Origin: an uncultured Bacteroidales bacterium
Lineage (GTDB): Bacteria; Bacteroidota; Bacteroidia; Bacteroidales; Paludibacteraceae
DNA length: 64,000 nt
Assembly (NCBI GenBank): GCA_900316995.1
Contig: ONEZ01000005.1
Location: 59,939-123,938 of the forward strand
Direction of reading: 5' to 3'
In this document: one piece after another, positions 37,282 through 46,797 of the stretch
How the letters are laid out: each line of letters starts with the position of its first letter
Position numbering within the stretch: position 1 is the stretch's first letter
Translations under genes and position numbers: made by a program
The notes under the pieces: generated by a model
Told to the model about the DNA's origin: nothing
What the model saw: the letters and a program-made list of their open reading frames with translations, nothing else
The model's database searches: none

Positions 37282-38145
37282 TTAGGCCTTTTTGTCAAAA
37301 TAGCCGCGACGCTCGGTAGATGTGAGCATCATCTTTTTCATTGTAGCCTCATCGCCTGAGGCAATGGCGTTGCGGAGTCTGTTGAACTGTTCTGAGAACA
37401 AATCCATTTGTCGTAACAGCTCGTCACGGTTAAGGAGGAACAGCTCTGTCCACATCACCTCATTTATGCGGGCTATACGTGTAAGGTCTCGGAATGAGTC
37501 TCCGGTAAAGCGTGCAAGCTCTTGTGAGTTATCCTTGCAGTTCATTAGTGAAACTGCAATACAGTGTGTCAGCTGGCTCAGGAACCCAATCATTTCATCA
37601 TGCTGTTCAGTGGTAAGGCGTGATATTGTTTTGAAACCAAGTATGCGCCCAATCTCCTCGCAAGTTTCAATGGCCTCCGGAGTGTTTTTAGATGTAGGTG
37701 TAACTATGTAGTTAGCACCCTCAAATACACGGGCTGTGGCGTTTTGCACACCGCTTGTTTCGCGGCCGGCCATAGGGTGTGCGCCAATAAACTCCAAATC
37801 AGGACGTAGCATGCTTTGAACACGGTTCACTACAGCTCCTTTCACACCTGTAACATCGGTCAGAAGTGCGCCTGGTTTTATATACTCCTGATATTTCTCT
37901 ATCCACTCTATAAAAACGTGCGGGTATAGTGAGAATACCACTATGTCATACTCCGATACAAACTCAGGTGTTACACTAACTGTTCCTGCATCTATTATTC
38001 CATGCTCTAAGGCGTAGTCAATGGAACTTTGTGAGCGTGTTACTGCACCCACTTTGTAACCAGCCTTTTTAAGTCCCTCTGCATAGCTTCCTCCTATAAG
38101 ACCAAGGCCTACAATAAGGAATGATTTATCTTTCAAATTACTCAT
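37282..38145 (-). CDS. tyrA: Prephenate dehydrogenase
   Basis: This 287-residue NAD(P)-dependent enzyme converts prephenate to 4-hydroxyphenylpyruvate in tyrosine synthesis. The Rossmann motif is FLIVGLGLIGGSYAEGLK (about 9-26). The family motif GAHPMAGRETSGVQNA (about 140-155) holds the catalytic His, and LTHCIAVSLMN follows. There is no fused chorismate mutase or ACT domain. It is the last gene of the aromatic operon, separated from aroEK by a 141-bp structured element. Confidence 0.95.
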   Translation of the reverse strand: MSNLKDKSFLIVGLGLIGGSYAEGLKKAGYKVGAVTRSQSSIDYALEHGIIDAGTVSVTPEFVSEYDIVVFSLYPHVFIEWIEKYQEYIKPGALLTDVTGVKGAVVNRVQSMLRPDLEFIGAHPMAGRETSGVQNATARVFEGANYIVTPTSKNTPEAIETCEEIGRILGFKTISRLTTEQHDEMIGFLSQLTHCIAVSLMNCKDNSQELARFTGDSFRDLTRIARINEVMWTELFLLNRDELLRQMDLFSEQFNRLRNAIASGDEATMKKMMLTSTERRGYFDKKA

Positions 38146-38162
38146 AAATAATACATATTGTT

Positions 38163-38304
38163 AGTAATATTCTCTCCCATTCTTCAGGCTCAGCCCATTT
38201 GTAATGGGCTTCGTCCCTCCCATACGGGTCTGTGACCCTATGGGTCCCTCCCACTATACCTCTCCGTGGGTGGAGAGGCTTCTGAATTAGGAGAGAATAT
38301 TACT
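38163..38304. repeat. Structured intergenic element (closed by 15-bp perfect stem)
   Basis: AGTAATATTCTCTCC (38163-38177) is perfectly complementary to GGAGAGAATATTACT (38290-38304). Inside, on the minus strand, three local hairpins are readable: CCTCTCCACCCACGGAGAGG, GACCCATAGGGTC with a second GACCC...GGG, and GCCCATTACAAATGGGC. The right arm encodes the last codons of aroEK. Confidence 0.7.
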
Positions 38305-39507
38305 TAACTCTTCATCATTATTAATTATATTGTCAGCAATAGATTTATATATAGGTAATCTTTTATGGTATAGCGCTTTTAGCGCTTCTGAATCACTTGA
38401 AAGCGGGCGGTCACTTGTGGCTATGAGCTGGTCAAGCGGGCGGTTTATAAAGCTGATTCTGCCGTTCATCTTAAGGTTATGAACATTCTCACTGCGTAAC
38501 ACTGCACCACCGCCAAGTGCAATAACAAGCCCCTGGCGCATAGAAATGTCACGTATAACGCTGCTTTCCATATCACGGAACGCCTGCTCTCCCTGCTCCT
38601 TAAATATTTGTGTAATCTCCATGCCGGAACGCTCCACTATAAGTGCATCGGTGTCAACAAACTCTCTGCCATATTTGGCTGAAAGCTCCTTGCCTATGGT
38701 TGTCTTCCCGCATGACGGCATGCCACAGAGCACTATATTGCGCTTGTCGGTTAGTATCTTTTCGTATATACGGTCTGTGTCAGCCTGCCCAAGGTTGGAA
38801 CCCACAAACCAGTTCCTTGCTGCTACTGCCTGAGCTACAAGCATATAAAGTCCGCCGCTTGCTTTGATGCCACGCTCCATAGCGTCAAGCACAAGGTTTG
38901 TCTGTAGCGGATTATAGATACAGTCAAGCACTCCCTCAAGGCATGGAAACAGGTTTATATCCACCACACGAAGTGCATTATTTGGGAACATACCCACTGG
39001 TGTGGCGTTTATTATGATATTGTAGTTAAAGCTTTTCCCTCCTGTTTTCAGGGAATAGATGTCTATATCTGAATCTTTAGGGCTTCTGGCGGCGTGTGTT
39101 ATTGAGCCTGCGCCCAGCGATGCCGCCACAGCATGGGCTGTTTTAGCTGCACCTCCCACACCAAGAATCAGCACATGGCGCCCGGTAAAATCAATATTGG
39201 AGCGTATAGCCATAAGTTTCAACCCCTCAAAGTCTGTGTTGTAACCAAATAGTTTGCCTCCACGGTTCACTATTGTATTTACCGCCCCTATAGCCTTTGC
39301 ATCGTCAGAGATATAGTCTAAGTAGGGTATAACGCTCTCCTTGTAAGGTATGGTTACGTTGATGGCCTTAAAGCTGCGCTCACGCATAAAGGCGTCAAGT
39401 CCCTCACGGCTAACCTCATGCAGTTCATACGCATCGGCCGATAACATTCCGTGAATCTCACGTGAAAAACTATGCCCCAGATGCTCGCCTATTAGTCCGT
39501 ATTCCAT
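38287..39507 (-). CDS. aroE-aroK: Bifunctional shikimate dehydrogenase-shikimate kinase
   Basis: This 406-residue fusion joins two pathway enzymes. Residues 1-245 are AroE: GLIGEHLGHSFSREIHGML (substrate site), INVTIPYKESVI, LILGVGGAAKTAHAVAASLG (NADP loop), and INATPVGMFPNN. Residues about 255-406 are AroK: NIVLCGMPSCGKTTIGKELS (Walker A), FVDTDALIVERSG, and VIALGGGAVLR. The order dehydrogenase-kinase differs from the fungal AROM chain. Its ATG shares one base with the aroC stop (TAATG). Confidence 0.95.
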   Translation of the reverse strand: MEYGLIGEHLGHSFSREIHGMLSADAYELHEVSREGLDAFMRERSFKAINVTIPYKESVIPYLDYISDDAKAIGAVNTIVNRGGKLFGYNTDFEGLKLMAIRSNIDFTGRHVLILGVGGAAKTAHAVAASLGAGSITHAARSPKDSDIDIYSLKTGGKSFNYNIIINATPVGMFPNNALRVVDINLFPCLEGVLDCIYNPLQTNLVLDAMERGIKASGGLYMLVAQAVAARNWFVGSNLGQADTDRIYEKILTDKRNIVLCGMPSCGKTTIGKELSAKYGREFVDTDALIVERSGMEITQIFKEQGEQAFRDMESSVIRDISMRQGLVIALGGGAVLRSENVHNLKMNGRISFINRPLDQLIATSDRPLSSDSEALKALYHKRLPIYKSIADNIINNDEELSNILS

Positions 39508-40601
39508 TATCTCAGGTAGTTTTGTCCGTTCTTTATTGATAGCATATCACAAAGCACAATGGCAACCATGCTGCTTATAACTATGCAGATACGTCGCACT
39601 ATGGCGGGGTCATGGCGGCCTGTAAGGTTAAGAGTCTCCTCTTTGCCTGTCAGGAAGTTTATGGTCTGCTGGCTCTGTGATATAGACGGGGTGGGCTTTA
39701 CGGCTGTGTTGAACACCACGGGCATGCCGTTTGATATGCCGCCGTTAATGCCTCCATTATTGTTTGTGCGGGTTCGCACTGCGCCATTTTCAATGCAGAA
39801 CGGGTCATTTGCAGTTGCGCCAGTCATGTTGGCAAGGTCAAACCCTTTGCCAAACTCAATCCCTTTAACACCGCCAATGGCAAACACAGCCTTGGCAATA
39901 ACGCCTTCCAAGGAGTCAAACCAGGGTTCACCGATGCCAGCCTCCAAGCCTGTAATGGCTGTTTGTACTATGCCGCCAATGGAGTCAAGGTTATTTTTCA
40001 CCCCGATGATAGCATTGGTAATATCCTCTTCAATATGGTTGACAACAGGGAATGTCTTACTGTTTAGCACCTCTATGCCATGCTCAATGCTCTCAGCGTT
40101 GGTACAGAAATCAACATCTCTGACCCCGCCGCAGCTCAATATGTGAGTCCCTATTCTCACGCCCTTGCCTTCAAGCGCCTTGATGGCTATGGCACCTGCC
40201 GCCACTATTGCAGCTGTTATTCTGCCGCTAAAGTGCCCGCCGCCACGGTAATCTTCAAAACCAGAGTACTTTACGTGCGCAGTGTAGTCTGCGTGTGAGG
40301 GGCGTGCAAGCCCGTATGTTTTTGCGTAATCTCCGCTACGGGTGTTCTCATTAGGAATTATTATGCATATTGGTGCACCAGTGGTGTAGCCGTTAAAAAC
40401 GCCACTCACAATTTTAAAGTGGTCCTGCTCCTGCCTTGCTGTGTCTGTGGCACCCTGCGGACGGCGTTTTGAGAGTTGCTCCGCTATAAAAGCCTCATCC
40501 ACGGCTATGCCAGCGGTCATGCCGTCAAGTACAGCACCTATAGCCTCTCCGTGAGATTCTCCGAACAGGGTCAGGGTTATGTTTTGTCCTATGGTATTCA
40601 T
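39507..40601 (-). CDS. aroC: Chorismate synthase
   Basis: This 364-residue FMN-dependent enzyme makes chorismate from EPSP. The start at 40601 (MNTIGQNITLTLFGESHGEA) gives the classic N-terminus. The signatures GESHGEAIG, RRPQGATDTARQE, the flavin region YGLARPSHADYTAHVKYSG and RGGGHFSGRITA are clear. RPSHADY replaces the more common RPGHADY. A longer frame upstream runs into non-coding DNA. Confidence 0.97.
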   Translation of the reverse strand: MNTIGQNITLTLFGESHGEAIGAVLDGMTAGIAVDEAFIAEQLSKRRPQGATDTARQEQDHFKIVSGVFNGYTTGAPICIIIPNENTRSGDYAKTYGLARPSHADYTAHVKYSGFEDYRGGGHFSGRITAAIVAAGAIAIKALEGKGVRIGTHILSCGGVRDVDFCTNAESIEHGIEVLNSKTFPVVNHIEEDITNAIIGVKNNLDSIGGIVQTAITGLEAGIGEPWFDSLEGVIAKAVFAIGGVKGIEFGKGFDLANMTGATANDPFCIENGAVRTRTNNNGGINGGISNGMPVVFNTAVKPTPSISQSQQTINFLTGKEETLNLTGRHDPAIVRRICIVISSMVAIVLCDMLSIKNGQNYLR

Positions 40602-40720
40602 ATTTTTTATTCTTAACGTGTTACTTATCTGCAATTATCAAGAAAAAAATATGAACATATTTCCTTGATAATGAGGCTACGCCTCTTTTCGCTTCGCGGC
40701 GGGCAGAAGCCCGCTGTCGC
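40602..40720. other. Intergenic spacer with two hairpins in the aro operon
   Basis: The 119-bp gap between aroB and aroC holds GAGGCTACGCCTC and GCGGGCAGAAGCCCGC hairpins. There is no T-run, so these are probably mRNA stability or REP-type elements, not terminators. Confidence 0.5.
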
Positions 40721-41710
40721 TTATAGCTCCGTAACTTTCAACTCCTTAAACTCAAAGTTCCCAATCTCATTAACGTAAACCGTTGTGATTTTATTGCCGG
40801 AAGCTTTTTTATCCAGTTTTATATAGGGCTTGAGCGTCTCCATGCTATATGGGTTCACGGTAGGCAGGTCATACTTTTCAAGTACCGCCTTGATGCGTGC
40901 AGCTGCCTTTGGGCTTGCCATGCTGAGCATGCCTATTGCCACACATTCACCGTGATAGAGCTGCTTCTCTGGGTCGCTCTCCAGTGCGTGTGAAGCCGCT
41001 TCAATGGCGTGGCCTATTGTGTGCCCAAAGTTAAGCACTTTTCTGAGCCCTCCCTCTTTAGGGTCAGCCTTGACCACTGCGTATTTGATGGCAAGGGAGT
41101 CTGCAATTATGCGGTCAAGTTTCTCGTCAAGCGTGCCCACTGACTCTATGTAAGAGAAAAGTTCGGCATCGCTGGTGGCAGCCATTTTTATAGATTCAGC
41201 CAGACCTTCATGTAGTAACCGTGGAGTTAAAGTGCGTAGCGTTTCAGGATCTATTATAACTTTTTTAGGCATATAAAAAGCACCTATGTTGTTCTTCACA
41301 CCGCCAAAGTTAATTGCAGTCTTGCCTCCTATGGAAGAGTCAACCTGTGCAAGCAGGGTGGTTGGTATGTTGTAAAAATCCACACCACGCATATAGCACG
41401 ATGCAGCAAAACCTGCCATATCTCCAGTGACTCCACCTCCCACGGCCACCACTGCGTCAGTGCGTGTGAAACCATGGTCTATCATAGCCTGAAGTATAAG
41501 CTTCAGAGTGTCAAAACTTTTGCTCTCCTCACCGTGTTCAAACACAAACTTATAGCCGTTTTTGCACGTACTCAGCACAACATCGGAGTAGGCAGATGGC
41601 ACACCGTCATCTGTCACCACTAATACCTTACGGTTAAGATTTAGGTATTCGGCTACATGGCTCAGCGCACCACGTCTTAAAATAATATTTTCTGCAATTT
41701 GTTTGCTCAT
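40721..41710 (-). CDS. aroB: 3-dehydroquinate synthase
   Basis: This 329-residue NAD- and zinc-dependent enzyme starts at 41710 (MSKQIAENIILRRGALSH), 1 bp after the DAHP synthase stop. The longer frame to 41818 lies inside the previous gene and is rejected. Marks are VVAVGGGVTGDMAGFAAS (NAD loop), IPTTLLAQVDSSIGGKTAIN, LAESIKMAATSD and VLNFGHTIGHAIEA (zinc histidines). Confidence 0.96.
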   Translation of the reverse strand: MSKQIAENIILRRGALSHVAEYLNLNRKVLVVTDDGVPSAYSDVVLSTCKNGYKFVFEHGEESKSFDTLKLILQAMIDHGFTRTDAVVAVGGGVTGDMAGFAASCYMRGVDFYNIPTTLLAQVDSSIGGKTAINFGGVKNNIGAFYMPKKVIIDPETLRTLTPRLLHEGLAESIKMAATSDAELFSYIESVGTLDEKLDRIIADSLAIKYAVVKADPKEGGLRKVLNFGHTIGHAIEAASHALESDPEKQLYHGECVAIGMLSMASPKAAARIKAVLEKYDLPTVNPYSMETLKPYIKLDKKASGNKITTVYVNEIGNFEFKELKVTEL

Positions 41711-41711
41711 G

Positions 41712-42743
41712 TTATAATAGTTCTGCGATATCATAGATGAGGCGTTCTGTCTTCTCCCAGCCAAGACATGGGTCTGTGATAGACTTTCCGTAGATGCACT
41801 CGCCCTCCTTCTGAGCACCGTCCTCTATATAAGACTCTATCATTAAGCCTTTTACAAGTGCTTTTACACCTTCGCTGTGACGCATGCTGTGCAGCACCTC
41901 TTTTGAGATACGAATCTGCTCAATGAACTTTTTACCTGAATTTGAGTGGTTGCAGTCAACAATGACAGCAGGGTTTTTCAGGTTCTTGGCAGCGTCATAA
42001 AGCTCCACCAAATGGTTCAAATCCTCATAGTGGTAGTTAGGGTGCGCAGTGCCGTGGTTATCAACGTAGCCACGCAGAATGGCGTGAGCAAATGGATTGC
42101 CAGTGCTCTGCACCTCCCAGTTGCGGTAAATAAAAGTATGGCTGCCCTGAGCCGCCTTAATAGAGTTCATCATTACAGAGAGGTCGCCCGATGTAGGGTT
42201 CTTCATACCAACTGGAATATCCAGACCGCTGGCTGTAAGGCGGTGCTGCTGGTTCTCCACGCTGCGGGCGCCTACTGCTACGTATGAAAGCAGGTCTGAG
42301 AGGAATTGGTGGTTCTCCGGGTAGAGCATCTCATCAGCACATGAGAAGCCAGTCTCATTGAGAGCCTTCATGTGCAGTTTGCGGATGGCTACCAGACCTT
42401 TTAGAATATCCGGGTCTGCCAGCGGATTAGGCTGGTGAAGCATACCCTTGTAGCCGGCACCTGTGGTTCTTGGCTTGTTGGTGTAGATTCTTGGCACAAT
42501 AATAACCTTCTCTCTCACCTTGTCCTGTACTGGGCGCAGACGGCTGATGTAGTCTATCACGCAATCTTCATGGTCTGCTGAGCAAGGGCCAATGATTAGC
42601 ATAAACTTATTTGACTCACCACTGAGTATTGCTCTTATCTCTTTGTCGTTCTCCGCTTTAGCGGCAAGTCCTGCCTCAGAGACAGGATACATCTCCTTAA
42701 TCTCTTTGGGCTCAAACAGGGCCCTTTTAAAATTCATGTTCAT
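41712..42743 (-). CDS. aroF: 3-deoxy-7-phosphoheptulonate (DAHP) synthase, class I
   Basis: This 343-residue enzyme condenses PEP and erythrose-4-phosphate, the first step of the pathway. The AroFGH type is shown by LIIGPCSADHEDCVIDYI, RIYTNKPRTTGAGYKGML (KPRTxxG), DIPVGMKNPTSGDL (GxKNxTxG), and VIVDCNHSNSGK. There is no fused chorismate mutase. Allosteric feedback by an aromatic amino acid is possible. The order in the operon, after aroDA and before aroB, suggests a full pathway dose. Which isozyme letter applies is arbitrary. Confidence 0.94.
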   Translation of the reverse strand: MNMNFKRALFEPKEIKEMYPVSEAGLAAKAENDKEIRAILSGESNKFMLIIGPCSADHEDCVIDYISRLRPVQDKVREKVIIVPRIYTNKPRTTGAGYKGMLHQPNPLADPDILKGLVAIRKLHMKALNETGFSCADEMLYPENHQFLSDLLSYVAVGARSVENQQHRLTASGLDIPVGMKNPTSGDLSVMMNSIKAAQGSHTFIYRNWEVQSTGNPFAHAILRGYVDNHGTAHPNYHYEDLNHLVELYDAAKNLKNPAVIVDCNHSNSGKKFIEQIRISKEVLHSMRHSEGVKALVKGLMIESYIEDGAQKEGECIYGKSITDPCLGWEKTERLIYDIAELL

Positions 42744-42890: not shown

Positions 42891-44804
42891 TTAACAGTTA
42901 ACTAAATGAAATCCAGGAAATGATTTTGCAACGCACTCTACGTCATCAATCATTATCTTGCTGTCTGCTCCAAGCGATGCAAGCATCAGCGCCATAACCA
43001 TACGGTGGTCATGGTGTGATGTGAAACTGCCTCCTTTAAGCAGGTTGCCAGTGGCGAACCTGCGGCTTAGCCCCATGCCATTCACTATTAGAGTGTCACT
43101 CTCAATGCGGCTCTCAACGCCAAGCCCGTCAAACATTCCTATAATTGCCTTGGCACGGTCAGATTCCTTGCTTGCAAGTCTGCCTACTCCGTCTAAATGG
43201 CTCTCACCCTCACTCATTGCGGCAAGCACTGCCACCACGGGGAAAAGGTCAGGAGATTGGTTCAAGTTGCACTTAAAACCATGCAGCGGGGATTTGGCAG
43301 TGCTTGCCACTCCGTGCCTGACGGTAACTTTAGTCCCAGCACTCTCAAGCACTTTAACCACAGCCAAGTCAGCCTGAGTGGAGTCAAGGCTAAGGTCAGG
43401 CACGGAGACGCTGCCGTAAACGGCACCGGCAATGAGCAGAGGTGCCGCACCGCTCCAGTCGCCCTCAAGGTTTATGTCGGCAGGCTTGTAACTCTGTCCG
43501 CCAGCAATCTTTATTATAAGTTTGCCGCATGAGCTCTCAAGCTTTATGTCAATACCAAACTCACGCAGCACATTTGCTGTAAGATGCAGGTATGGCACGC
43601 TGGTAGGCTCCTCAATGGTAATTTCAGAAGGAGAGTCAGCCAGCGGCAATGACGCCATTAGCCCGCTGATGAGCTGTGAGCCGCCTTTGCCCGTAATAAC
43701 GGCCTTGCCGGCATGTAGGTTCCCTTCTATGCGTAGTGGAACTGATGATTTGCTTAGCGTAACTCCAAACGCCTCCATAGTCTCTTGGGCGCATAGTAAC
43801 GGCCTGCCAACCAGAGTACCTTCCCCATTGACAGTTGTGCTGCCAGATTGCAGCATAGATATGATAGGAATTGAAATGCGTGTCAGGAATCCGGACTCGC
43901 CTGTGAAAACTTCTTGTGGTATGCGTGGATTGGCTCCTATGCCCTTTACTATCAAAGTGCTGCCTTCTTGGGTGATTTCTGCTCCAAGTGTGCGTGCAAA
44001 CCTTATGGCGGATTCTGAGTCAGCGCAAGGGCTGTAACCTGCAAGGTGTGAGGTGCCGCAGGCAAGCGTGGCGGCTATAACCGCTCTCTGTGCCATGCTC
44101 TTAGACGCCGGAACCTGTGCCACTCCGCCCCTCCACAGGGAGCCGCCACCGTAGAGAGCCCCGCGCATCTCTTCAGCAGTCCACTGCCCGTCAGCGGTGC
44201 GCTCTTCTTCACTTAGTGCAGCGTAGGTGAACGGGGCTCCTCTACGCAGAGCCTCAAACCGGCTCAGCTTGCCTGCCGCACCCATGCAGAACGCACATAG
44301 TCTGCCGCTTGGCACCATGCTTTTGTAGCTGTCATACAGAGCCATAACCCTCTCCGCATCGGCGTGGCTATGAGCGTATGTCACAATCTTAACTGTGTCA
44401 GCACCTCCGCTTAGGCAGCTCTTAACCGTCTTGTCAAGCACACTTGAATCAGGGGTGCCGTCATAAAAGTGAACTGAACGTACAAATCTTGCTCCGTATT
44501 GTGTGGCTGTCTTGCCAATCATTGTTGCTATACTCTCAGGCGCTTCAATCTCCAAATCCACAAAAGAGGCTCCTGCTTCCACGGCTTTGCAGAGTTTGTG
44601 CTCCGCCTCCTGCTCAGTAACGCTGCCGCCAATACGGCATGTTGCAAGCAGGGTGACATCCGTGCGTGAAAAGAGCGCCTCAATATCAGCGTAGGTCAGG
44701 GAGGGGCAGAGGTCTATTCTAATCTCAGCCATCTCCACCGCTCCGCTGTCAAGGATAGCGGAAATTTCGCTTAGTGTTTTATTCTGTATGCTTGTACAAA
44801 TCAT
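42891..44804 (-). CDS. aroD-aroA: Bifunctional 3-dehydroquinate dehydratase-EPSP synthase
   Basis: This 637-residue fusion contains two pathway steps that are not adjacent (AroE and AroK act between them). Residues 1-225 are a type I dehydroquinase: AEIRIDLCPS, ATCRIGG, FVRSVHFYDGTPDSS (catalytic His), and VKIVTYAHSHAD (Schiff-base Lys). The remainder is EPSP synthase: VAQVPASKSMAQRAVIAATL, LEGDWSGAAPLLIAGAVY, and SHHDHRMVMALMLAS. The start is MICTSIQNKTLSE at 44804, 7 bp after pheA; a TTG at 44822 lies within the repeat and is rejected. Confidence 0.95.
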   Translation of the reverse strand: MICTSIQNKTLSEISAILDSGAVEMAEIRIDLCPSLTYADIEALFSRTDVTLLATCRIGGSVTEQEAEHKLCKAVEAGASFVDLEIEAPESIATMIGKTATQYGARFVRSVHFYDGTPDSSVLDKTVKSCLSGGADTVKIVTYAHSHADAERVMALYDSYKSMVPSGRLCAFCMGAAGKLSRFEALRRGAPFTYAALSEEERTADGQWTAEEMRGALYGGGSLWRGGVAQVPASKSMAQRAVIAATLACGTSHLAGYSPCADSESAIRFARTLGAEITQEGSTLIVKGIGANPRIPQEVFTGESGFLTRISIPIISMLQSGSTTVNGEGTLVGRPLLCAQETMEAFGVTLSKSSVPLRIEGNLHAGKAVITGKGGSQLISGLMASLPLADSPSEITIEEPTSVPYLHLTANVLREFGIDIKLESSCGKLIIKIAGGQSYKPADINLEGDWSGAAPLLIAGAVYGSVSVPDLSLDSTQADLAVVKVLESAGTKVTVRHGVASTAKSPLHGFKCNLNQSPDLFPVVAVLAAMSEGESHLDGVGRLASKESDRAKAIIGMFDGLGVESRIESDTLIVNGMGLSRRFATGNLLKGGSFTSHHDHRMVMALMLASLGADSKIMIDDVECVAKSFPGFHLVNC

Positions 44805-44811
44805 ATAATTG

Positions 44812-45912
44812 TCAACTGTCAAATGTCAACTGTCTATAGCTCCCCAAGTGCTTCATCTTGCTACATATAGTGTTCAGCTGAATAAGAAGGTCCTGACCGT
44901 CTTGTGAGTTCACACTTCCTTCAAGTTCGGCAAAGAAGTAGTGCCCCCACATCTTGCCTTTCAGCGGGCGGCTGTGCAGGCTGCTCATGTTAAAGCCGTG
45001 AGATCCAATAAGGTTAAGTGCCTGAGCCAGCGCTCCGCAGGCGTTCTTTACCGTGAATACAAGGATAAAGTGTTCGCCCAGGTGCTCCTTGCTGGCAGTG
45101 CTGTTCATTGTGCGTGAAAACACTGCAAAACGGGTTGAGTTTGTGTTGGAGGTGTTTATCTTGCGCTCCAAAATCTCAAGTCCGTACAGCTCAGCTGTCT
45201 CTTCTGATGATATGGCTGCAAGGGTTACATCGCCGCGCTCAGACACATATTTTGAAGCCACAGCAGTGTTGCCAAACGCCTCCTCTTCAAATCCGTGCTT
45301 ATGAATGTACTCAGTGCACTGCGCCAAGGCCTGTGGATGGCTAACCACCTTCTTGATGTCACTTATCTTAGCTCCCTTTACACCGTTTAGGTTTTGCACA
45401 ATGCTCATCTCAACCACTACATTTACAAACAGAGAACCATAGAAAGCAAGGTCCATAACATCGCCAACATCACCGGCGTGGCTGTTCTCCATAGGAAGCA
45501 GGGTTACATCCACCTCGCCAGCCTCACAAGCCATGTATGCGCTTGCAAAATCTGGGTATGATATAAGCTGGGCTGTTGGATAGAGTTTTCTGGCGGCGAT
45601 ATGGGCGTATGCTCCTGGAATACCGCAGTATGCAACCTTCATCTTATCCATAACACGCTCCTGATAAGCCTTAGATACATCCATAAGGTTCTTTACAAAT
45701 ATTCTGTGGTACTCTTTAAGAGACGGATCTTGTACGTACTCTGCACTATGTGCAAGTATCTTTTTCTCCTGCTCCTCATCATAGATAGGGAGCCCGCTTG
45801 CCTGCTTGAACTCCATAACGCCCTTTGCAAGCTGCATCCTGCGCTCAAATAGAGCTGCCATCTCTTTGTCAACGGCTTGAATCTGTTTCCTGATGTTATC
45901 TAAATTTTCCAT
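44812..45912 (-). CDS. pheA: Chorismate mutase-prephenate dehydratase (P-protein)
   Basis: This 366-residue protein starts at MENLDNIRKQIQAVDKEMAA, an AroQ-type chorismate mutase (1-90). It is followed by prephenate dehydratase (about 105-275: VAYCGIPGAYAHIAARKLYP, NSTRFAVFSR) and a C-terminal ACT domain (LVFTVKNACGALAQALNLIG, then NMSSLHSRPLKGKMWGHYFF) for Phe feedback. An in-frame upstream extension begins inside the terminator stem and is rejected. It is the first structural gene of the operon, after an attenuator. Confidence 0.95.
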   Translation of the reverse strand: MENLDNIRKQIQAVDKEMAALFERRMQLAKGVMEFKQASGLPIYDEEQEKKILAHSAEYVQDPSLKEYHRIFVKNLMDVSKAYQERVMDKMKVAYCGIPGAYAHIAARKLYPTAQLISYPDFASAYMACEAGEVDVTLLPMENSHAGDVGDVMDLAFYGSLFVNVVVEMSIVQNLNGVKGAKISDIKKVVSHPQALAQCTEYIHKHGFEEEAFGNTAVASKYVSERGDVTLAAISSEETAELYGLEILERKINTSNTNSTRFAVFSRTMNSTASKEHLGEHFILVFTVKNACGALAQALNLIGSHGFNMSSLHSRPLKGKMWGHYFFAELEGSVNSQDGQDLLIQLNTICSKMKHLGSYRQLTFDS

Positions 45913-45923
45913 AACTGAAAAGT

Positions 45924-45954
45924 AAAAAGGCTGTTCGAACCAGTCGGACAGCCT
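45924..45954 (-). terminator. Attenuator terminator before pheA
   Basis: On the minus strand AGGCTGT (45954-45948) pairs with ACAGCCT (45934-45928), followed by TTTTT (45928-45924), then the pheA ATG at 45912. The stem overlaps CTGTCCGACT (45951-45942), which pairs alternatively with AGTCGGACAG (46015-46006). Confidence 0.8.
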
Positions 45955-46015
45955 CATTTATATCTCATATTTCTCTTTGCCTAATTAACGTACACAATGA
46001 AGAGCCTGTCCGACT
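45942..46015 (-). promoter_or_regulatory. Antiterminator pairing of the aromatic attenuator
   Basis: AGTCGGACAG (46015-46006) is perfectly complementary to CTGTCCGACT (45951-45942), with GCTC/GAGG-type extension (13 of 14 bp). The upstream arm lies within codons 17-20 of the leader peptide. A ribosome stalled at the aromatic codons leaves the arm free, whereas one that passes covers it and permits the terminator. Confidence 0.8.
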
Positions 46016-46065
46016 TTATTATTAAATCGAAACCAATAATAGAAGTATGTGCTGTACAAACTCAT
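45985..46065 (-). CDS. Aromatic leader peptide (26 codons) of the aro/phe/tyr operon
   Basis: The frame begins at ATG 46065, about 13-15 nt after the predicted transcription start, and ends at TAA 45985-45987. It reads MSLYSTYFYYWFRF, then NNKVGQALHCVR, so 8 of the first 14 residues are aromatic (four Tyr, three Phe, one Trp). Slow decoding by scarce Tyr-, Phe- or Trp-tRNA would stall the ribosome just before the antiterminator arm. This is the classic arrangement of phe/trp leaders in Proteobacteria. Confidence 0.85.
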   Translation of the reverse strand: MSLYSTYFYYWFRFNNKVGQALHCVR

Positions 46066-46084
46066 CACTTTTGTTTTAACGGCG

Positions 46085-46115
46085 CAAAGTTAATGTAATT
46101 ATTGTTATCTGCAAA
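46085..46115 (-). promoter_or_regulatory. Promoter of the aromatic operon
   Basis: TTTG (46112-46115) and TAACTTTG (46085-46092) on the minus strand are 19 bp apart, exactly the Bacteroidetes consensus. Transcription should start near 46079, giving a leader of about 165 nt before pheA. Confidence 0.85.
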
Positions 46116-46137
46116 AAAAATAACTGTCAAATGTCAA

Positions 46138-46797
46138 CTATTTCTTAAGAAGCCCTTTGTCCATCATGTCTGTGACTATGGTTTTTGCAAACTCAGATGA
46201 CATTGTCTGTGCGTCAGACGGGTCAGTGGTTGATGTTTTTGCCACATATATGGCATCATTCTCATCCTGAGCATTATATAGGCGGGCCTCAAGAATGTAA
46301 CTTGTGGTTTCTGTCCAGTAGCCAGGTGTGGTTACCTGGTCAAAGTAGTAGTTGTAGCATGTGAAGTATGGGTGGAACCAGGGGTCATAAAACACAGGAC
46401 CTGTAGGAACTGCGTATGTAGTGGTGGTAGGAGGAGTGTACTCTTCATTCTGCTCTTTGTCAAGCAGTGTAATCAGCAATACACCAGTATAACCACCGTC
46501 ACGTATGGCTTTTGCAATATCCTCCTTCTGTTGTTTTTTAAGCGCATCAGGGCCGAAAATATCGAATGCTGAGAAAGATTTTGCACCGTGAGCATTGAGG
46601 TTTGCCACTATGGCGTCCTCAAAATTATCCTGTAGTTTGTTGTCGCTTTTGCTTAAAAGTGAGAATACAAGAACTTTATCCATTGTGTTAGATGGAACTG
46701 TACCAGCCCATGATGAAATCAGACGGGTTGATGAACATGATGCAAGTAGCATTGCACTGAGCAGAACTGCAATTGATGTAAAGATTTTGTTTTTCAT
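46138..46797 (-). CDS. Predicted lipoprotein, DUF4136-like
   Basis: This 219-residue protein has a lipobox (AVLLSAMLLASCSS, Cys about 21), so it is anchored in the outer or inner membrane. The mature part starts STRLISSWAGTVPSNTMDKV and continues KDIAKAIRDGGYTGVLLITLL-like (DIAKAIRDGGYTGVLLITL), a pattern shared with DUF4136-type lipoproteins. A Pro/Thr/Tyr-rich loop (PPTTTTYAVPTGPVFYDP) follows. It ends just before the aromatic promoter. A TATCTTTG box lies upstream (46817-46824). Confidence 0.72.
   Translation of the reverse strand: MKNKIFTSIAVLLSAMLLASCSSTRLISSWAGTVPSNTMDKVLVFSLLSKSDNKLQDNFEDAIVANLNAHGAKSFSAFDIFGPDALKKQQKEDIAKAIRDGGYTGVLLITLLDKEQNEEYTPPTTTTYAVPTGPVFYDPWFHPYFTCYNYYFDQVTTPGYWTETTSYILEARLYNAQDENDAIYVAKTSTTDPSDAQTMSSEFAKTIVTDMMDKGLLKK

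Follow-up and report, generated by a model that had tools for sequence, protein, structure and literature searches.

The 64,000-nt window analysed here comes from an uncultured Bacteroidales bacterium of the Paludibacteraceae and carries, on its minus strand, a run of aromatic amino-acid genes headed by pheA. The short region upstream of pheA raises the question of how this run is controlled. The first-pass annotation saw in it a classical leader-peptide attenuator, and this is still the best reading, given the anatomy of the region, its conservation, the covariation of its helices and its codon pattern. With a probability of about 90%, the region is a ribosome-mediated transcription attenuator of an aromatic amino-acid operon and a member of a widespread Bacteroidia family. 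Translation of the leader, ribosome stalling, transcription termination and the choice of amino acids that count are steps that we infer.

Architecture of the region upstream of pheA

The seven genes of the run (Table 1) cover the shikimate pathway to chorismate together with the enzymes of the Phe and Tyr branches, and their order suggests that pheA to tyrA are co-transcribed. Two gene fusions, aroD-aroA and aroE-aroK, occur in this one run. The ACT domain of the pheA product is weak, scoring 21.5 bits against a Pfam cut-off of 27, and the true start of aroB probably lies inside its listed ORF. The ORF list begins pheA at an in-frame ATG at 45957, inside the terminator; the resulting 15-codon in-frame extension (45957-45913, MRLSDWFEQPFYFSV) crosses the terminator, and a stop codon closes it in the sister genome G015. 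We prefer the start at 45912, because pheA of G015 begins at the matching residue and has an in-frame stop codon upstream.

Table 1. Attenuator elements and aromatic genes, in window coordinates
Feature	Coordinates	Strand	Basis or detail
Promoter, Bacteroidetes-type	46085..46115	-	TTTG 46115-46112, 19-nt spacer, TAACTTTG 46092-46085; read directly in the sequence
Leader peptide ORF	45985..46065	-	ATG 46065 to TAA 45987-45985; 26 codons plus TAA
Arm 1 (protector)	46056..46063	-	8 bp including GU with 46009-46002 once the terminator forms; constrained fold
Arm 2 (antiterminator 5' arm)	46002..46015	-	within leader codons 17-22
Arm 3	45942..45954	-	common to antiterminator (45951-45942) and terminator (45954-45948, 45946-45944)
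Arm 4 and T run, intrinsic terminator	45924..45938	-	stem 45954-45928; T5 45928-45924
pheA, fused chorismate mutase type II - prephenate dehydratase	44812..45912	-	Pfam CM_2 and PDT over cut-off
aroD-aroA fusion	42891..44822	-	Pfam DHquinase_I and EPSP_synthase
DAHP synthase	41712..42743	-	Pfam DAHP_synth_1
aroB	40721..41818	-	Pfam DHQ_synthase
aroC	39507..40634	-	Pfam Chorismate_synt
aroE-aroK fusion	38287..39507	-	Pfam Shikimate_dh_N and SKI
tyrA (prephenate dehydrogenase)	37282..38145	-	Pfam PDH_N, PDH_C; closes the co-directional aromatic run

The elements described in the first-pass annotation were all recovered on the minus strand. The promoter is present base by base and is of the Bacteroidetes type, judged by the TTTG and TAnnTTTG pair that we take to be the consensus; the leader transcript would be expected to start near 46080. 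The leader peptide (MSLYSTYFYYWFRFNNKVGQALHCVR) has the eight aromatic codons among its first 14 that had been claimed (codons 4, 7, 8, 9, 10, 11, 12 and 14). The antiterminator helix was likewise confirmed base by base, as 10 perfect base pairs between 46015-46006 and 45942-45951, and the terminator does overlap the antiterminator segment, with arm 3 as the middle arm common to both. The terminator stem consists of 7 bp, one mismatch and a further 3 bp (-14.2 kcal/mol), and 11 nt separate its T5 run from the pheA ATG. A generic scan reported the same inverted repeat in the plus orientation only, and the promoter that it gave nearby is a different, sigma-70-like one; the minus-strand T run and the TAnnTTTG box were read directly and lie outside the output of that scan.

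Since T-richness makes Phe codons cheap, the region could be imagined as a constitutive terminator behind a chance aromatic-rich ORF in T-rich DNA, with no regulation at all, and when the 400 nt upstream of pheA were shuffled 2000 times, an aromatic leader alone turned up in 5 shuffles. The full arrangement, by contrast, did not appear in any of a separate 2000 shuffles of the same 400 nt; our detector counts it where 12 residues of a short ORF include 7 or more F/Y/W and where a terminator follows, together with an antiterminator run of 6 bp or longer. On both strands of the 64-kb window the detector found a single site, which is this leader. Applied to the strands of fetched loci 2-5 kb long, 511,602 nt in all once the repeats L001, L002, L016, L022-L024 and L059 had been dropped, it made 65 detections, 64 of which are leader sites and one of which is stray. 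Simple chance was rejected on the shuffles of the full arrangement and on this single stray. Together with the three-arm covariation and the occurrence in 60 of 68 class-level genomes described below, these counts leave an unregulated chance ORF scarcely credible.

Conservation, covariation and codon pattern in the Bacteroidia

Of the 16 genomes in the genus sample, 14 match the pheA of the window, G011-G013 over the chorismate mutase domain only. An F/Y leader lies upstream in seven of the 14 (G000, G015, G001, G002, G003, G005 and G006) and is absent upstream in the other seven (G007, G009, G010, G014 and G011-G013). The leader of the sister G015 (MNLSFAKYYYYWFRFNSQIGQW) has arms matching those of the window, and its gene order of pheA, aroDA, DAHP synthase and aroB is the same over the fetched piece. 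At the family level, matches to a standalone prephenate dehydratase came from 82 of 120 genomes, and a leader with a terminator was present at all 30 loci taken from the best-scoring 30 of these 82. Three of the 30 loci repeat earlier genomes; among the 27 new ones, four (L030, L033, L035 and L039) carry tandem leader-terminator units. Two attenuators in series before pheA were also seen in L099 and L100.

At the class level, a leader was found before pheA or before an upstream DAHP synthase gene in 60 of the 68 genomes with a dehydratase match (G000 aside). Thirty-six of the 68 have a match to model R1 directly upstream, by coordinates. Another 20 class loci, without an R1 match directly upstream, were fetched, and every one of them has a leader and a terminator; in 19 the antiterminator run reaches 6 bp or more, L102 being the exception. 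In four more genomes (G203, G238, G321 and G400), the leader is farther off, at 3.5-4 kb upstream, and a DAHP synthase-chorismate mutase gene follows it. No leader was found in the other eight, whose enzymes are divergent and include two that are CM-PDT fusions, judging by the extent of the match. Beyond the class, 37 pheA upstream regions were fetched: 3 have a leader (L109, L110 and L111) and 34 have none; the antiterminator run of L109 is only 5 bp, and L110 falls under the detector threshold and was recognised by eye.

Across the phylum, model R1 gave 86 match rows in 65 of 296 genomes at E<=0.01, an overcount that is not usable as a prevalence, because only 3 of 40 weaker hits proved aromatic. 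The rows comprise 30 fetched loci (one being the window's own), 14 directly before a dehydratase by coordinates, and 42 others. All of the 29 best hits other than the window's own stand before aromatic genes (25 PDT, 3 DAHP synthase and 1 tyrA), and 28 pass the full detector, L071 failing it. The 40 weaker hits fetched from the 42 others consist of three aromatic leaders before DAHP synthase, four leader-like sequences for other amino acids and 33 that were not recognised; that is, the detector saw no aromatic attenuator at 37 of these 40 hits away from pheA. Among the 13 outside-class genomes with R1 hits, six have aromatic ones (G267, G283, G311, G382 and G410; G193 by coordinates). No second attenuator of the Phe/Tyr family was found in the window's own genome, where the next of 14 R1 matches has an E-value of 0.06 and the seven further loci that were read, the strongest of the remaining matches, are not aromatic leaders.

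Model R2, made from 34 leaders with the window and G015 left out, gives the window leader a score of 40.2 bits (E 1.4e-5, a rough E-value for 80,487 nt searched) and that of G015 one of 37.7 bits (E 4.2e-5, same 80,487 nt), with the best non-leader at 16.5 bits; the low-complexity, Phe/Tyr-rich and T-rich tract makes such a leader easier for any model to find. The window attenuator is a member of a widespread Bacteroidia family without an Rfam match. The pheA product of the window shares only about 30% identity with the standalone enzymes, which suggests that the attenuator stayed in place while the gene below it changed, or was reused. Convergence on T-rich sequence keeps a small share of probability as an alternative origin.

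We aligned 38 leaders, 34 of them first copies and four second copies. Helix 2:3 is paired in 85.6% of cells and helix 3:4 in 92.9%, each with two-sided changes in 8 of 9 pairs. Covariation was 0.328 for helix 2:3, compared with 0.189 +/- 0.015 in shuffles (0/500) and at most 0.098 when slid, and 0.475 for helix 3:4, compared with 0.243 in shuffles (0/500) and at most 0.161 when slid. The slid controls are the better guide, because the shuffles ignore relatedness. Further pair types in helix 2:3 showed no excess, at 12 vs 13.4 in shuffles, which counts against the reading. The first-pass annotation had proposed that related genomes be compared for conserved aromatic codons and compensatory stem changes; the comparison went in its favour, with aromatic codons kept, two-sided changes in both helices and loci spread across the class.

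Over nine aligned leader codons, the pairwise differences are 0.101, 0.387 and 0.399 at codon positions 1, 2 and 3; as read from the aligned sequences, the differences are exchanges of Phe and Tyr or mostly synonymous. Taking the nearest ATG as the start, both Phe and Tyr occur in 35 of 37 distinct leaders (L044 and L045 have Phe only), Trp occurs in 8 of 37, and the F/Y tract stays constant while lengths vary between 14 and 26 aa. Because F and Y codons interchange, most leaders hold both and few hold Trp, the leader appears to be mainly a Phe/Tyr sensor. The earlier suggestion that the codon mix of the window fits an operon serving all aromatic amino acids is refined by this: the mixture is general among relatives and Trp is a minor part of it. 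A Trp codon that tracks operon content was set aside, as Trp is also found in the leaders of ordinary pheA genes.

The same variability bears on whether the short ORF might instead encode a functional small protein that shares its 5' region with a terminator by coincidence. In Sinorhizobium meliloti, according to the available text, a trp leader peptide reportedly acts in trans (PMC7298713). Against such a role here, only the F/Y tract is constant among leaders of 14 to 26 aa, and the covariation of the overlapping arms would be left unexplained; we regard it as highly improbable.

Each of the 34 first copies has a TAnnTTTG box 26-47 nt upstream of its leader start, and none of the four second copies has one, which indicates that the tandem units are probably on one transcript.

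Predicted ribosome positions and the displaced stop codon

In the attenuation mechanism that we propose, a transcript would start near 46080 and a ribosome would begin the leader. When charged Tyr- and Phe-tRNA (here also Trp-tRNA) are short, the ribosome would stall on codons 4-14, leaving arm 2 free for arm 3 and the terminator blocked, and pheA-aroDA-DAHPS-aroB-aroC-aroEK-tyrA would be transcribed. When charged tRNA is plentiful, the ribosome would pass over arm 2, arm 3 would pair with arm 4, and RNA polymerase would stop at about 45924.

Folds of the window leader were calculated with an assumed ribosome footprint of P-13 to P+15 and with equilibrium energies that leave co-transcriptional folding aside. 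With a stall at codons 4-12, all 10 antiterminator base pairs are free and the antiterminator fold is the lower in energy; with codon 14 in the A site, 8 of 10 are free and the terminator is slightly preferred (-27.2 vs -26.3 kcal/mol). A ribosome at codons 16-24 blocks the antiterminator arm. At the stop codon (27), the ribosome leaves the arm free and the antiterminator is slightly preferred (-27.0 vs -25.0 kcal/mol). In the textbook attenuator, a ribosome at the stop codon covers the antiterminator arm, whereas in the window leader it does not, by fold or by spacing.

In 29 of the 38 aligned leaders, the first stop base is followed 3-5 nt later by the arm-2 reference base (alignment column 71), a spacing at which a terminating ribosome should cover arm 2. 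In the window this base lies 22 nt before the first stop base (-22), the extreme of the 38, and in G015 at -7. With the stop codon so displaced, the window leader would have to repress through kinetics, or through the ribosome's bulk lying between arms 2 and 3, while the family fits the textbook. The window attenuator could also be partly degenerate, with poor repression and semi-constitutive expression, as its extreme place among the 38 leaders and the free arm at the stop codon might suggest. However, all arms are intact, the terminator keeps its -14.2 kcal/mol, a ribosome at codons 16-24 would still block arm 2, and the sister G015 is nearer the usual spacing; we consider partial degeneracy unlikely.

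Without a ribosome, the two folds of the transcript are close, at -36.3 and -34.1 kcal/mol. Near-equal folds in the free transcript would also suit a real switch in which the sensor is an RNA-binding protein or a small molecule on the leader RNA and the aromatic codons are incidental, and the riboswitch class SAM-II long loops is listed for Bacteroidetes in the available text of PMC2864571. Such a sensor does not account for an aromatic frame kept through exchanges of Phe and Tyr and synonymous changes, for an arm 2 that a terminating ribosome could cover (3-5 nt past the first stop base in 29/38), or for the aromatic genes below 29/29 best hits. We judge it quite improbable and favor sensing by the translating ribosome.

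Known attenuators and candidate leaders for other amino acids

Proteobacteria have classical leader-peptide attenuators at pheL-pheA and trpL (Phe_leader and Trp_leader in Rfam). The window attenuator is like these in its codon-rich leader, its protector, antiterminator and terminator arms, and a terminator just before the first gene. It is unlike them in that it has no Rfam match, F and Y codons are interchangeable in the Bacteroidia family, arm 2 of the window lies inside the leader frame, and the operon joins the shikimate pathway to pheA and tyrA. Locally distinctive are the fused CM-PDT pheA heading seven genes, the Trp codon and the displaced stop codon.

At gathering scores, Rfam reported one tRNA only in the window. 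Phe_leader, Trp_leader and Bacteroid-trp (RF01692) had no match up to E 10 in 45880-46150, nor any in 12 relative loci, nine with pheA leaders; an existing Rfam family was thus rejected for the window and these 12 loci. Bacteroid-trp, which from its name we take to be tied to trp genes, resembles the present family as a cis-regulatory candidate in Bacteroidetes and differs from it in concerning Trp rather than Phe/Tyr.

The available text of PMC2864571 presents Bacteroid-trp as a cis-regulatory candidate in Bacteroidetes. In Flavobacterium psychrophilum and further members of the Flavobacteriaceae, a conserved 5' element without an Rfam hit has been described before pheA, and the authors also noted clues for leader-peptide attenuation at amino-acid operons (PMC9723704, available text). 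This element probably belongs to the same family as that of the window, although the available text gives no leader sequence, arms, tandem copies or class-wide survey. In B. thetaiotaomicron, some 5'-UTR sORFs were called reminiscent of leader peptides (PMC7366714), and Korolev et al. 2016 counted Bacteroidetes leader genes by distance only (PMC4833913), both in the text available; the main text of Naville and Gautheret 2010, as available, contains no word starting with bacteroid or flavobact (PMC2965389). The first-pass annotation called such attenuation little documented in Bacteroidetes, which is roughly fair but passes over two precedents, RF01692 and the Flavobacteriaceae pheA element. 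Vitreschak et al. 2004 reportedly predicted attenuators in Bacteroidetes/Chlorobi by comparative analysis, and Lopatovskaya et al. 2010 are said to have surveyed amino-acid attenuators in the same group; either may already have predicted some of the present family. The kind of attenuator is already known, while its class-wide extent, the exchange of Phe and Tyr, and the tandem units were not found in the portion of the full-text literature covered by our searches.

Leader-like sequences for other amino acids were seen as well. Upstream of trpE, L163 (G428) and L164 (G426) have Trp leaders that contain WWW and precede terminators, with a tandem pair in L163; at gathering score, no Rfam family, Bacteroid-trp among them, matches either locus. 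L178 (G349 C3:21310-22699) has tandem Ile-rich leaders, MKNLINIAFIIIIIIIR and MKQAIQNNIIISIIIIRIT, each followed by a terminator-like repeat, before a gene for which Pfam gave no identification. Thr/Ile-rich leaders occur in L180 (G265 C1) and L179 (G372 C15); that of L180, MIFNTSIITTIIITTG, precedes an aspartokinase-like amino acid kinase with an ACT domain, and that of L179 is MKNLNNIIITITIIAIQQ. In L210 (G283 C57), the leader (MANCCCCCKTCQSEREACI) is rich in Cys and stands upstream of a PALP-family enzyme that may be cysteine synthase, making it a candidate Cys attenuator, and a short ORF with HHQLFHHH upstream of hisG in L149 (G428) is a possible His leader. In the window's own genome, neither a His leader before hisG nor a Trp leader before trpB-trpE was found. 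At its trpB-trpE locus (G000 C25, L165), a box resembling a promoter lies near trpB and no leader of the Trp type was seen, and the aro leader of this genome has a Trp codon.

These observations lead us, tentatively and at somewhat less than even odds, to a broader picture: leader-peptide attenuation may be the general control of Bacteroidia amino-acid operons, with the Phe/Tyr family at its center, kept or reused over a replaced pheA (here a fused CM-PDT in a whole-pathway operon) and repeatedly doubled into a two-step gate. The candidate Trp, Ile, Thr/Ile, His and Cys leaders, two of them tandem, fit this picture.

The Phe/Tyr leader RNA family could be added to Rfam, and its tandem copies would lend themselves to testing how attenuators behave in series. 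Our results also suggest that attenuation coupled to translation operates in a phylum whose promoters are unusual. The Bacteroidota are major gut and rumen bacteria, and the control of their amino-acid synthesis is little documented in the literature searched. A widespread attenuator offers a concrete, testable mechanism by which these bacteria would match Phe and Tyr synthesis to supply.
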